55,595 nucleotides of DNA from NCBI GenBank assembly GCA_944358265.1, contig CALVQR010000004.1:1-55595 (forward strand), written 5' to 3'. This DNA comes from an uncultured Bacilli bacterium (GTDB lineage Bacteria; Bacillota_I; Bacilli_A; RF39; UBA660). This document shows, piece by piece, positions 1 to 39,576 of the stretch; the first letter of the stretch is position 1, and every line of letters begins with the position of its first letter. The translations under genes and the position numbers were made by a program. A model generated the notes under the pieces. It searched no databases and was not told where the DNA came from. It saw only the letters and a program-made list of their open reading frames with translations.

Positions 1-1433
1 AAATATTTTTTAAATTCTTTTATTGAATTTATTTCTTTTATTTTTTCAGCATAAGTTTTATTTTCAGTATTTTGTTCTTTGTCTGTAATATTTTTCATTA
101 ACTCAATTTGTTCATCTATAGTTTTATTTTTTAGTACATCTTTAGTTATCGCCATTCTATATACATTATAATCGTAGTTACAGTCTTTTAATGTTCCCAT
201 TAACTTAACTTGTTCTTCTATACTTCTGTTTTCTAATACATCTCTATCTACTGCTATAAAATATGCATATTTATTATATTTACATTCTTTTAATGTTTCC
301 ATTAGCTTAATTTGTTCTTCTATACTTCTTTTTTCTAATACATCTTCATTTACTTCTATAAGATATGCATATTTATTATATTTACATTCTTTTAATGTTT
401 TCATTAACTCAATTTGTTCTTCTGCACTTCTATTTTCTAATACATCCCTATCCGTTGCTATTTTATATGCATATTCATGATATTCACATTCTTTTAATGT
501 TCCTATTAAATTAATTTGCTCTTCTATACTTCTTTTTTCTAATACATTTCTATTTATTGCTATTTTATATGCATCTCCATGATATTCACATTCTTTTAAT
601 GATTCCATTAACTTAATTTGTTCATCTATACTTCTTTTTTCTAATACATCTTCATTTACTGCTATTTTATATGCATTTATATTATAACCACATTCTTTTA
701 ATGCTTCCATTAACTTTATTTGCTCGTCTATACTTCTTTTTCCTAATACATATCTATTTACTGCTGTTTTATATGCATATTCATTATATTTACATTTTTT
801 TAATGTTTTCATTAACTTAATTTGCTCTTCTATACTTCTTTTTTCTAGTACATCTTTATTTACTGCTATTTTATATGCACTTTCATTATATTTGTATTCT
901 TTTAATGTTTCAATTAATTTAATTTGTTCTTTTATACTTCTGTTTTCTAATACATTTTTATTTACTGCTATTTTATATGCACTTTCATTATATTTGTATT
1001 CTTTTAATGTTTTCATTAACTTAATTTGTTCTTCTATACTTCTTTTTTCTAATACATCTTCATCTACTGCTATTTTATATGCATTTATATTATAACCACA
1101 TTCTTTTAATGCTTCCATTAACTTTATTTGCTCTTCTATACTTCTTTTTTCTAATACAATAGGATCTATTGCTATTTTATATGCATATTCATTATATTTA
1201 CATTTTTTTAATGTTTTCATTAACTTAATTTGCTCTTCTATACTTCTTTTTTCTAGTACATCTTTATTTACTATTATTTTGTAAACATTTTCATTATATT
1301 TACATTCTTTTAAAATATTCATTATTGAGTCTATATCTTCTTTTGAATATGAATCTAATGTTATTATTAATTTTTTTAATAAATCTATGTCTTTACTATT
1401 ATTTGCTAATACATTCATTACATCTATTTGCAT
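1..1433 (-). CDS. 34-residue tandem-repeat protein A, 3' end cut by window
   Basis: No known family recognised. The frame is open from ATG at 1433 (SD GAGGTGA, six bases upstream of the start) to the window edge. After an N-cap of about 58 residues beginning MQIDVMNVLANN come eleven complete 34-residue repeats and a twelfth, degenerate one. Each unit starts VLEKRSIEEQIKLM, followed by a variable LKECxYNEYAYKIA half, which suggests a pair of helices and hence an alpha-solenoid. The last visible residues (IKEINSIKEFKKYF) match the start of the C-cap seen in the two neighbouring paralogues, so only some 30 codons should be missing. No signal peptide or membrane segment is visible. The next gene upstream (B) ends inside this gene's SD, so the two are probably translationally coupled. 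Function unknown; a protein-binding scaffold is an inference from the architecture. Confidence 0.85.
   Translation of the reverse strand, partial: MQIDVMNVLANNSKDIDLLKKLIITLDSYSKEDIDSIMNILKECKYNENVYKIIVNKDVLEKRSIEEQIKLMKTLKKCKYNEYAYKIAIDPIVLEKRSIEEQIKLMEALKECGYNINAYKIAVDEDVLEKRSIEEQIKLMKTLKEYKYNESAYKIAVNKNVLENRSIKEQIKLIETLKEYKYNESAYKIAVNKDVLEKRSIEEQIKLMKTLKKCKYNEYAYKTAVNRYVLGKRSIDEQIKLMEALKECGYNINAYKIAVNEDVLEKRSIDEQIKLMESLKECEYHGDAYKIAINRNVLEKRSIEEQINLIGTLKECEYHEYAYKIATDRDVLENRSAEEQIELMKTLKECKYNKYAYLIEVNEDVLEKRSIEEQIKLMETLKECKYNKYAYFIAVDRDVLENRSIEEQVKLMGTLKDCNYDYNVYRMAITKDVLKNKTIDEQIELMKNITDKEQNTENKTYAEKIKEINSIKEFKKY
138..1259 (-). repeat. eleven complete 102-nt coding repeats in gene A
   Basis: Unit boundaries fall exactly every 102 nt (first codon of each unit at 1259, 1157, 1055 and so on down to 239). 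Units 1–2 (1056–1259) and units 5–6 (648–851) are almost identical, and units 3 and 4 resemble each other. This points to higher-order block duplication. The period is a multiple of three and every unit is open in one frame, so this is protein repeat coding, not CRISPR. Confidence 0.9.
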
Positions 1434-1438
1434 TCTAC

Positions 1439-2701
1439 TCACCTCTTGTCTTTTTTATTGCTTGGCTTATAAGACAAATCTTTTTTATATAAATCTATAT
1501 CTGCATCTGTTCCATATTTTTTTTCTAGTTCTTTTAAATATTGTTTTAATTTTGTTAATGTTTGAATATTTTTAATAACAGAAATATAAGTATCTAATTG
1601 AATATTTTTCTCATCTTGTTCTTTTTCTACTTTATTATTCATTATGTCTATCTGTTGTCTTCGAGACTTTTTCATCAACTCAATTTGCTCTTCTATACCT
1701 TTTCTTAGTTCATAAGAATTTACTGCTATAAAATATGCACACAAATTATGTTTACATTCTTGTAATGTTTCTATTAACTTAATTTGTTCTTTTGCACTTC
1801 TTTTTTCTAATACATCACTATCTACTGCTATAAGATATGCATAGTCATTATGATCACATTCTTTTAATAGTTCCATTAACTTAATTTGCTCGTCTATACT
1901 TCTTTTTTCTAATACATTTCTATCTATTGCTATTTTATATGCATATTCATGATATTTACATTCTTTTAATGTTTCTATTAACTTAATTTGTTCATTTATA
2001 CTTCTTTTTTCTAATACATTTCTATCTATTGCTATTTTATATGTATAGTAATTATAATCATAATCTTTTAATGTTTCTATTAACTTAATTTGTTCTTTTG
2101 CACTTCTTTTTTCTAATACATCGTTATTTACTGCTATTTCATATACATAGTAATTATAATCATAATCTTTTAGTGTTTTCATTAATTCAATTTGTTCTTT
2201 TGCATTTCTTTTTTCTAATACATCTCTATCTACTGCTATAAGATATGCATCTTCTTGATATTTACAGTCTTTTAATGTTTCTATTAACTTAATTTGTTCA
2301 TCTATACTTCTTTTTCCTAATACATCGTTATTTACTGCTATTTCATATACATATTCATTATATTCACTTTCTTTTAATATTTCCATTAAATTAATTTGTT
2401 CATCTATACTTCTTTTTCCTAATACATCGTTATTTATTGCTATTTCATATACATATTCATTATATTCACTTTCTTTTAATATTTCCATTAAATTAATTTG
2501 CTCTTCTATACTTCTTTTTTCTAGTACATCTTTATTTACTATCAATTTGCAAATATTTTCATTATAATTACAGTCTTTTAAAACGTTCATTAATGATTCT
2601 ATATCTTCTTTTGAATATGAATTTAATATATCTAGAAGTTTTTTTAATAATTCTATATTTTTAATATTATTTGCAAGTACATTCATTACATCTATTTTCA
2701 C
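1439..2701 (-). CDS. 34-residue tandem-repeat protein B
   Basis: Paralogue of gene A, about 420 residues. The start chosen is the GTG at 2701, giving MKIDVMNVLANN: it sits six bases after AGGTG, exactly the geometry of gene A. A longer reading from GTG 2710 would begin inside that SD. N-cap (residues 1–58), eight exact 34-residue repeats, then a more diverged stretch rich in E, K and Q, and a C-cap (LKQYLKELEKKYG, ADIDLY, LSYK, ending NKKDKR) shared with gene C. No transmembrane segment or catalytic motif is visible. Variation within units is concentrated around positions 19–27 and 30–34, while the VLEKRS..EQI.LM half is nearly constant. Its stop TGA lies within the SD of gene A. Function unknown. 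Confidence 0.88.
   Translation of the reverse strand: MKIDVMNVLANNIKNIELLKKLLDILNSYSKEDIESLMNVLKDCNYNENICKLIVNKDVLEKRSIEEQINLMEILKESEYNEYVYEIAINNDVLGKRSIDEQINLMEILKESEYNEYVYEIAVNNDVLGKRSIDEQIKLIETLKDCKYQEDAYLIAVDRDVLEKRNAKEQIELMKTLKDYDYNYYVYEIAVNNDVLEKRSAKEQIKLIETLKDYDYNYYTYKIAIDRNVLEKRSINEQIKLIETLKECKYHEYAYKIAIDRNVLEKRSIDEQIKLMELLKECDHNDYAYLIAVDSDVLEKRSAKEQIKLIETLQECKHNLCAYFIAVNSYELRKGIEEQIELMKKSRRQQIDIMNNKVEKEQDEKNIQLDTYISVIKNIQTLTKLKQYLKELEKKYGTDADIDLYKKDLSYKPSNKKDKR
1712..2527 (-). repeat. eight 102-nt coding repeats in gene B
   Basis: Eight contiguous 102-nt units with first codons at 2527, 2425, 2323, 2221, 2119, 2017, 1915 and 1813. Units 1 and 2 are nearly identical at the DNA level, indicating recent duplication. 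The consensus is the same as in gene A. Confidence 0.88.
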
Positions 2702-2758
2702 TATATTCACCTCTTGTTTTTATTATATTTATTAAATACAAAAAAAGCAAGAAAATTT

Positions 2759-23331: not shown

Positions 23332-23565
23332 TTAAATAGTTAAACTTTCCACTAAAATTACATCTTCTCCAATCTTATTTATTTGATTCCAGTATATTTC
23401 AATTTCATCCGCATTTGAAAAAATTGATGAAAATTTTCTTTTTTCTAATATAATTGATTCTATTTTACCAGTTTCACTATTTACTTTAACATCAATTATA
23501 TTTCCTATTTTTATACCTGTATTAATATTAATAACATCTTTATTTTGTATTTCTGATAAACGCAT
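23332..23565 (-). CDS. ymxH: YlmC/YmxH-family PRC-barrel protein
   Basis: 77-residue PRC-barrel protein (MRLSEIQNKDVININTG; IGNIIDVKVNSETGKIESI; IYWNQINKIGEDVILVE). The YlmC/YmxH family is confined to spore-formers and often lies next to sigG or sporulation genes; its molecular role is not settled. ATG after AGGTGG. Here it follows the interrupted lysozyme-like gene and, further up, sigG, which keeps the typical sigG–ylmC neighbourhood. Confidence 0.9.
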   Translation of the reverse strand: MRLSEIQNKDVININTGIKIGNIIDVKVNSETGKIESIILEKRKFSSIFSNADEIEIYWNQINKIGEDVILVESLTI

Positions 23566-23601: not shown

Positions 23602-23634
23602 AAAATAAATAAAACTATTAATTTTATTTATTTT
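23602..23634 (-). terminator. all-AT terminator after the lysozyme-like gene
   Basis: 13-bp perfect stem (23602–23614 with 23622–23634), seven-base loop, T-run on the minus side. Its 5' arm overlaps the stop codon. Confidence 0.65.
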
Positions 23635-24497
23635 AAAACAAGTTCTACATTTCTTTCATCATAAAGTTTTCTCCCATTTTCAAGTTCATATCGGCAACCA
23701 TATACTAAATTTATCCAATGATTTGGATCAGGAGGGCAATATCTTTTCGCCATTGATGTAATATTTAATGATGGATAATTTTTATATAAATTTATTAATC
23801 CTTCTGAAGTGCCTAAATATATATTATCAAAATGTCTAAATCCATTTGATGAATTAAGTGCGAAAGGATTGTTTTTATTAGTTGCTATTTTGGCATCAAA
23901 ATAATGTGATTCAGCACATGCTATTGCAAGCGCAGTATCTTTATCTATACCTAAGATTTCGGATGTTTCATAAACATAATCTCTAATAGTCATATTAGAA
24001 ATTTCATCTGTATTTGTTTTACATCTTACGTCATCATATTCATATCCAAAATTATATGGTTTTGAATATAAATCATGTACTAATAATAGTACTTGTAAAT
24101 CAAAATTATCATATGTACCCCCTGTTGCAAAAATATCTTTATTATATTGAAATTCAAAAGATGAAAATTATTCAGTATATTCTTTAATTATATTAATTAC
24201 TATATCTTTTTTTATCCCATATATATTAGAATATTTTTCTACTACTTTCTCACATTCATATCTTTTTATAGATGCATAATCTTCAACTTTTAAGTTTGCA
24301 CCATTCTCTGGTAATATTTCTACATCTGTTTGTATAGATACATTAAAGTCTGGTTTTAAATTTTCACTATCAATATAATTTTTAATCTCATTTTTTGATA
24401 CAATTAATGCAATTGATAATAAATATAATTTTATAACTTTAAGTATATTTTTACTAGTTTTATCTAGTTCAATTATATTCTTAATTTTTTCATTCAT
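23628..24497 (-). pseudogene. membrane-anchored lysozyme/glucosaminidase-like gene with an in-frame TAA
   Basis: One reading frame of 290 codons interrupted only by TAA at 24168–24170. The first part (109 residues) has one hydrophobic segment at about 20–35 (LYLLSIALIVS) and an extracytoplasmic stretch. After the TAA, 58 codons lead without another stop into MTIRDYVYETSEILGIDKD, then AIACAESHYFDAK and NNPFAL, and end near YCPPDPNHWINLV. The latter resemble the glucosaminidase/lysozyme-like fold, with Glu in ACAES a possible catalytic residue. A sigma-A promoter and SD precede ATG 24497. Either a recent nonsense mutation, a sequencing error, or read-through. Spore-wall remodelling is a guess from the sigG/ymxH neighbours. 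Confidence 0.75.
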
Positions 24498-24533
24498 AAC
24501 TATAATCCCCCTATTTTTTCACAAACGAGGGTT

Positions 24534-24562
24534 ATTATATCACAATTTTTTATATTTCGCAA
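24534..24562 (-). promoter_or_regulatory. promoter of the lysozyme-like gene
   Basis: TTGCGA (24562–24557), 17-nt spacer, TATAAT (24539–24534) on the minus strand, then AGGGGG SD and ATG. Confidence 0.6.
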
Positions 24563-24565
24563 ACA

Positions 24566-25342
24566 CTATCTTATTAATTTTTTTACATTATTAATAGCAT
24601 TTTTTTCTATTCTAGAAACTTGTGCCTGACTTATACCTAATTCATCACTTATTTCCATTTGAGTCTTTCCCATTAAATATCTTTGATACATTATAAATTG
24701 TTCTTTTGTTTTTAATTTGTTTATTGCATCTGATAAGCTTATTTTTAAATCCCAATTATTGCTTGATTCTGCTTTGTTTTCTATTTGATCAAATAAATAT
24801 ATTGTTTCTCCTCCATCATTATAAATAGGTTCAAACATACTTACTGTTGACTTAGTTGCCTCTAAAGCACATATTATATCCATAGTTTCTACACCAATTA
24901 TTTTTGATATTTCATCTACATTAGGTTCTCTTCCATTTTCTATCATAAATTCTTCTTTTGCTTTTAGTGCCTTATATGCAATATCCTTAACACTTCTAGA
25001 TATTCTAATCATACTATCATCTCTTAAATATCTTCTAACTTCTCCAAGTATTAATGGTACAGCATAAGTTGAAAATTTAACATTATAACTCAAATTAAAA
25101 TTATCTACAGCTTTTGTAAGTCCAATGCATCCTATTTGAAATAAGTCATCCATGTCATCAGATCTATTTAAAAATTTTCTAAGAATACTAAGTACCAACT
25201 TAAAATTCCCTTCAATTAATTTTTCTCTTGCATTTTTATCGTTATTTTTCATTTTTTTAAAAAGGTCTAATTGTTCTTCACTTGTTAATGTTTTAAGTTC
25301 ACTTGTTTTTATTCCTGTGATTTCTACTTTGTTTCTTGACAT
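24566..25342 (-). CDS. sigG: Sporulation sigma factor SigG
   Basis: Late forespore sigma factor. 258 residues beginning MSRNKVEITGIKTSELKTL, almost the textbook SigG start. Region 2 (DLFQIGCIGLTKAVDNFN, VKFSTYAVPLILGEVRRYL), region 3, and region 4 with the HTH KTQMEISDELGISQAQVSR. The N-terminal motif separates it from SigF. ATG after GAAAGGAG. In Bacillus it directly follows spoIIGA-sigE; here it lies about 8 kb away, still followed by ymxH after one gene. Confidence 0.95.
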   Translation of the reverse strand: MSRNKVEITGIKTSELKTLTSEEQLDLFKKMKNNDKNAREKLIEGNFKLVLSILRKFLNRSDDMDDLFQIGCIGLTKAVDNFNLSYNVKFSTYAVPLILGEVRRYLRDDSMIRISRSVKDIAYKALKAKEEFMIENGREPNVDEISKIIGVETMDIICALEATKSTVSMFEPIYNDGGETIYLFDQIENKAESSNNWDLKISLSDAINKLKTKEQFIMYQRYLMGKTQMEISDELGISQAQVSRIEKNAINNVKKLIR

Positions 25343-37435: not shown

Positions 37436-37499
37436 AAAATATTATAAAATTTGATAATTTCTAAAAGAGCAAGATAAGAAAATGGCACCATAACAACAC

Positions 37500-38011
37500 G
37501 TCATTCCTTATAAAATAAGGATTTGTGTATATGCCCAGAACTGATTGCACCTGCCATGCCAAATCTTTGTTCTCTTACTACTTTTTTCTATTTCATTTTG
37601 TGTAATACTAATCATTATTCTCATTATCATTCTACCATTGGAAATAGTTGTGTTAGATTCGTCAGCATATAACCTTATCATTAACTATATCGAAAACATT
37701 TCTAGTTAATCTATCTAATTTAAACGTAACTATCACATTTATATTTTATTGATAACATCATTCATTATTTCTTGATAAGTAGGTCTTTTTTGGTTTTTAG
37801 AAATTATTCCTAAATCTTTATATATTTTATAGATGTAATATCTTTTAAAATTACAAAATTCCTTTAATTTATCTTCTTGTTCTTGTAAACTAAAATCCTC
37901 ACGACTTTGTTTCTCAGTTGTGACTCTTACATATATTCCATCAATTTTATTAATTCCATTCATAAGTCTTCCGTCTTTTGATAGACTATTACAAGCAAAT
38001 CTACATATCAT
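37500..38011 (-). pseudogene. broken serine recombinase (resolvase/invertase family)
   Basis: An N-terminal piece (37739–38011) contains GIYVRVTTEKQ, FSLQEQEDKLKEFCNFKRYY and YKDLGIISKNQKRPTYQEI, the serine-recombinase N-domain. The catalytic Ser of the RVST motif is Thr here. After its TAA a shifted frame gives VIVTFKLDRLTRNVFDIV; a further shift gives NTTISNGRMIMRIMISITQN and EIEKSSKRTK; another gives RFGMAGAISSGHIHKSLFY, ending near 37500. At least three frame changes and loss of the C-terminal DNA-binding part make it dead. It marks a former mobile element beside tRNA-Arg and the ABC exporter. Confidence 0.8.
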
Positions 38012-38162: not shown

Positions 38163-38239
<77 letters not shown>

Positions 38240-39231: not shown

Positions 39232-39280
39232 TTTCTTCACCTAAAAAATTATATGATTTATTTAAGAAAAAATGAGCTTT

Positions 39281-39487
39281 CTATAGAGAAATCTCATTTA
39301 ATTTAAGTAGTTCTACTACTGCACCACTTCTTCCTTTAACACCAAGTTTTTGCATAACATTAGATATATGATTTCTAACAGTTTTTTCACTAATATTTAA
39401 TTTATCCGCTATATCTTTAGTAGAATTATTTTTTATTAACAATTCAAATACTTCTCTTTCTCTTTTTGTTAATATTCCTTTATTCAT
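39281..39487 (-). CDS. gerE: GerE, LuxR-type sporulation regulator
   Basis: Late mother-cell transcription factor controlling coat genes. 68 residues, a stand-alone LuxR HTH: LTKREREVFELLIKNNSTKD, IADKLNISEKTVRNHISNVM, QKLGVKGRSGAVVELLKLNE. It agrees closely with Bacillus GerE across its length. ATG 39487 is chosen since GTG 39499 lies within the GAGG SD. It lies between gerM-like and spoIIIAH. It implies a late mother-cell programme, normally under SigK, which is not in this window. Confidence 0.95.
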   Translation of the reverse strand: MNKGILTKREREVFELLIKNNSTKDIADKLNISEKTVRNHISNVMQKLGVKGRSGAVVELLKLNEISL

Positions 39488-39576
39488 TTTAATCCTCACT
39501 TTCTTTCATAAGAGGTGTATATATAATTACTCATATTATCTTATGAAAAAAAAGTAATTATGTTATTAAAAAAGAA

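Follow-up and report, generated by a model that had tools for sequence, protein, structure and literature searches.

The closest described counterparts of the gene analysed here are, for the enzyme, the glucosaminidases of the PF01832 family, which we take to correspond to glycoside hydrolase family GH73 and which include pneumococcal LytB and the endolysin Ecd09610 of C. difficile, and, for the lesion, bacterial pseudogenes carrying a single nonsense codon, together with the spurious internal-stop calls that resemble them. Such pseudogenes and spurious calls likewise show one internal stop, an otherwise intact frame and unbroken homologues in the relatives. Published work (PMC11017572) attributes many internal-stop pseudogene calls in bacterial assemblies to assembly errors. 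Comparative work (PMC5289835) suggests that UAAU terminates translation most efficiently in bacteria. The locus described here, in a window of 55,595 nucleotides (the whole stretch of DNA analysed) from an uncultured Bacilli bacterium, is an ordinary case of this kind, a young nonsense lesion or a consensus error in a fast-evolving and probably dispensable gene.

The gene is on the minus strand at 23628-24497, a strand that the preliminary description did not state, running from a start ATG (24497-24495) to a final TAA (23630-23628) over 290 codons, both stops included. A preliminary description, made from the letters alone, had noticed one in-frame TAA in an otherwise intact gene, and indeed the frame from 24497 to 23628 is broken only at 24168-24170 (codon 110, minus strand), where the TAA is followed by a T, giving UAAU. 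The part before the stop (24171-24497, minus strand) comprises 109 codons and is hydrophobic at about residues 18-34; the anchor is thus preserved as described, as far as it can be judged by eye. The part after the stop (23631-24167, minus strand) comprises 179 sense codons and contains the glucosaminidase domain. A Shine-Dalgarno-like AGGGGGA is retained ahead of the start ATG (24506-24512, minus strand). Further upstream lies a promoter-like TTGCGA-17-TATAAT with a TG ahead of the -10 (24534-24562, minus strand; 10 of 12), so that a promoter may be kept too, although the scan as a whole was no richer than shuffled sequence (9 sites against a shuffle mean of 11.4). In the seven same-genus homologues, the best promoter-like site within 90 bases of upstream sequence scores 8 to 11 of 12, these being raw best scores taken without a shuffle control; the distance from site to start is 33 to 42 bases in six of the seven, 52 in L009 and 36 in the window, and a TG precedes the -10 in five of the seven. 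The upstream neighbour (24566-25342, minus strand) encodes a sporulation sigma factor of the SigB/SigF/SigG group, whose top model is SigG with a score below its cut-off, and the downstream neighbour (23332-23565, minus strand) a sporulation protein of the YlmC/YmxH family.

The coherent frame of about 180 codons that had been reported past the stop is borne out by shuffling, composition and homology. None of 2000 shuffles of the 537 post-stop bases remained open, the G+C at the three codon positions is 0.385/0.318/0.089 against a mean of 0.365/0.253/0.099 in 31 window frames chosen by us for comparison, and the encoded sequence is 50-51% identical to those of the two closest relatives. The open post-stop frame is therefore not due to chance; it is coding.

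The post-stop part was searched in 60 genomes and matched in 12, that is, in 11 of 59 besides its own, a count that must be read with the possibility that such a search misses a fast-evolving gene. By rank, the matches cover all seven other genomes of the genus and four of 29 others of the family, the latter with weak E-values, with none among the 23 other genomes of the class that were searched. An initial scan of genome contigs with the single post-stop part as query found no relative. All seven same-genus homologues are single unbroken frames of 277-308 amino acids from stop to stop, and five of them occupy the same slot between sigG and ylmC as in the window; the other two (L010 and L011) adjoin neither gene within the stretches examined. 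The start codons of the relatives were chosen by us, the L009 row of the alignment beginning at an earlier ATG than in the synteny comparison and one L061 row a few codons upstream of its ATG; the alignments did not include the four weak matches from beyond the genus (L012 to L015). The alignment is ungapped where the stop falls, and the residue in that column differs among the relatives (D, D, L, G, N, N, P). The stop is thus private to this assembly among the genus genomes examined. Orthologues encoding two separate proteins, which the preliminary description had named as the case against a single gene, were sought and not found, and two separate genes are ruled out by the seven single frames. 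In annotation, 23628-24497 should be entered as a single interrupted glucosaminidase gene instead of two proteins.

The two parts of the gene differ in how far they can be traced. Used as a lone query, the pre-stop part matched in one of the 59 other genomes (E 9.2e-4), and it is weakly conserved, at 19-30% identity to the homologues; because of these weak values, its homology rests mainly on the common frame and place. Against Pfam it returned only FokI_D3 (E 0.03, below the cut-off of that model), which is not convincing, so that, unlike LytB and Ecd09610, the gene has a region ahead of its enzymatic part that resembles no known domain convincingly.

The post-stop part is predicted from sequence to form a GH73-type glucosaminidase domain. 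Its PF01832 match (23688-23978, minus strand) scores 29 bits, slightly below the curated cut-off of 30.2 bits; separate queries gave 28 bits for 179 amino acids and 29.4 bits for 121 amino acids. The syntenic homologue in G001 exceeds that cut-off (41.2 bits), those in G004, G005 and G007 match below it, and seven of the eight family members match the model at E values up to 0.1. A profile built from the window sequence and its seven homologues was compared with solved structures and matched the glucosaminidase domain of Ecd09610 (8yxk, E 2.4e-11) and LytB (7pj3, E 1.9e-6), with the Glu of 'AES' aligned to the Glu of 'LES' in LytB. The Glu at position 86 of the post-stop part is invariant in all eight sequences, and we take it to be the catalytic residue. 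The predicted models are of middling confidence (mean pLDDT 69.5 and 73.4) and their Foldseek matches are weak, the best E values being 1.6 in one search (with FlgJ and LytB among the rows) and 0.83 in the other (with 8yxk and LytB), with no match at E 0.001 or better in either. Placed on the model of an intact relative (281 residues), the stop falls at residue 103, within a loop that joins two helices, and the conserved Glu is residue 189. The gene earlier called lysozyme-like, which is predicted to encode a cell-wall-cutting enzyme, is better named a GH73-type glucosaminidase (PF01832).

We consider that the gene of a membrane-anchored GH73-type N-acetylglucosaminidase has probably been inactivated by a single nonsense mutation that is real, very recent and carried by the strain or strains sampled. 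Translation from 24497 would end at the UAAU after 109 residues, and the product would be an anchored fragment devoid of the catalytic domain. The catalytic part would not be made, or would appear at trace level, and then in the cytosol, from an ATG lacking a ribosome-binding site.

That ATG (23991-23993, minus strand) is the earliest possible restart past the stop, as no ATG, GTG or TTG occurs between the two in its frame. It lies 58 codons after the stop and, in agreement with the preliminary description, no Shine-Dalgarno-like stretch is found in the 20 bases upstream. Its position just ahead of the PF01832 match would suit a gene whose two parts function separately, one as an anchored N-terminal fragment and the other as a catalytic protein restarted at 23993. 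Nevertheless, besides lacking a ribosome-binding site, such a restart would lose 58 codons common to the relatives, some of them in the stretch that aligns with LytB, the restarted enzyme would presumably have no export signal, and no same-genus relative shows a split of this type. We therefore regard a working split gene as very unlikely.

A second way of keeping the enzyme would be read-through of the UAA, either programmed or physiological, yielding some full-length protein, with which the normal constraint on the post-stop frame, as if it were translated, would agree. Against this, none of the seven same-genus homologues has the stop and its column is variable, and the context is UAAU, the signal to which PMC5289835, cited above, ascribes the highest termination efficiency in bacteria. 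UAAU is also the commonest end among the 31 window frames (12 of 31). Folding revealed no stimulating RNA structure at the stop, the fold around it being weaker than most shuffles (z +1.31, with 186 of 200 shuffles equally or more stable). No anticodon reading UAA was found among the 18 tRNA genes (ARAGORN was run on 14 of 18 tRNA loci, covering all 18 genes), a weak argument against a suppressor tRNA given that the genome is 64% complete. Taken together, programmed read-through seems very unlikely, so that of the three options first offered for the stop, recent nonsense mutation and base error fit the data, and programmed read-through does not. We give equally little credence to a variant in which a newly arisen, species-specific UAA is partly read through or bypassed, so that a little of the enzyme would be made in full length and the anchored fragment in excess. 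Among the 45 window frames of at least 100 amino acids, the two frames of the interrupted gene included, 36 end in TAA, 7 in TAG and 2 in TGA; a reassigned stop codon is ruled out, as TAA ends most window frames and the position of this TAA is not conserved. An Rfam scan of the window gave one match, a tRNA.

Inactivation by a real and recent nonsense mutation is favoured because the gene evolves fast, because its slot holds another frame in G006, and because the genome has a second PF01832 gene (on G000:C38); for the same reasons, its loss would be tolerated. The limited spread of matches, in 11 of the 59 other genomes, is a further sign that the gene may be dispensable. The gene is conserved at 52%, the least among the matches compared along the contig other than a recombinase remnant and a probable antisense shadow. 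The content of the slot between sigG and ylmC is variable within the genus. In G006 (L053 2334-3323), the place is taken by a different frame of 329 codons with no match to the glucosaminidase gene.

The state of the sequence past the stop bears on the age of the lesion. In a tree of the homologues found in the sigG slot, which left out L010 and L011 and where the split placing L005 and L006 as the closest relatives had 65% support, the post-stop branch of the window is 0.41 substitutions per site, compared with 0.42 for L005 and 0.62 for L006; the corresponding sigG branches are 0.070, 0.089 and 0.076. Considering the sites invariant in the five closest relatives (again leaving out L010 and L011), the window keeps 30 of 34, and those relatives from 30 of 31 to 30 of 38; with all eight sequences, the figures are 16 of 18 for the window and from 16 of 16 to 16 of 18 for the rest. 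The same test on the pre-stop part (3 of 5 in the window, from 3 of 3 to 3 of 5 in the others) is too small to use. Since there is no excess divergence past the stop, the lesion is either very young or an assembly error, and post-stop conservation, being compatible with both alike, cannot separate the two. Near the conserved Glu, the window has an H where all seven relatives have a G, a small hint of loosened constraint, which would suit a loss of slightly greater age than the other evidence indicates.

The earlier expectation that a decayed gene would carry more lesions holds in a simple decay model with assumed mutation rates, in which about 5.7% of substitutions make a stop. With 0.01 substitutions per site, a gene would escape any further stop with a probability of 0.74, which drops to 0.22 at 0.05 and to 0.05 at 0.1, and if indels are added at 5-10% of substitutions, the chance of no lesion falls under 1% at 0.1 substitutions per site. 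The frame is otherwise intact and the homologues of the relatives are unbroken, the pattern by which a recent nonsense pseudogene is recognized.

The main competitor of a real mutation is that the TAA arose in assembly or consensus calling, either as an error or as the base of a minority strain that prevailed, and that the gene is intact in the organism. The genome is a draft in 60 contigs, 64% complete, and consensus errors occur in such drafts; the post-stop part shows no added divergence, and the attribution of internal-stop pseudogenes to assembly errors in PMC11017572 points the same way. However, when 15807-48445 of the window was compared with the frames of relatives (from G001:C12 and G007:C37), 26 of the 29 best non-overlapping matches, totalling 8,152 aligned residues, had no stop, matches below 40% identity, with E above 1e-20 or overlapping a better match having been dropped before the count, and some of the small ones among the 29 possibly being antisense shadows. 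The other two interrupted matches are explained otherwise, or probably so, and this part of the contig thus does not look rich in errors. In addition, the sole unexplained lesion falls in the least conserved gene, which accounts for 207 of the 8,152 residues (2.5%), where random errors would seldom land, although an argument from a single case proves little. We therefore consider an error quite possible, though less probable than a real mutation.

One of those two matches, at 39261-39545 (plus strand), overlies a minus-strand frame at 39281-39499 and is probably an antisense shadow. The other, at 37483-38011 (minus strand), is the remnant of a large serine recombinase gene that retains part of the resolvase N-terminal domain and has several stops, gaps and a change of frame, and it exemplifies real decay in the window. 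Its homologue in G007 (L063:8135-10054) is intact, with 639 codons, and 41% identical. The remnant adjoins a tRNA-Arg gene (38166-38239) and may mark an old integration site.

Four of the relatives are Bacilli metagenome-assembled genomes, three with isolate names starting with 'Lapin' and one from the rectum of a water deer; the genome of the window is presumably of the same kind. The window appears repetitive or of low complexity at 209-2733 (plus strand), where numerous overlapping positions align with three small frames of G001:C12 at identities of about 26-33%, with stops.
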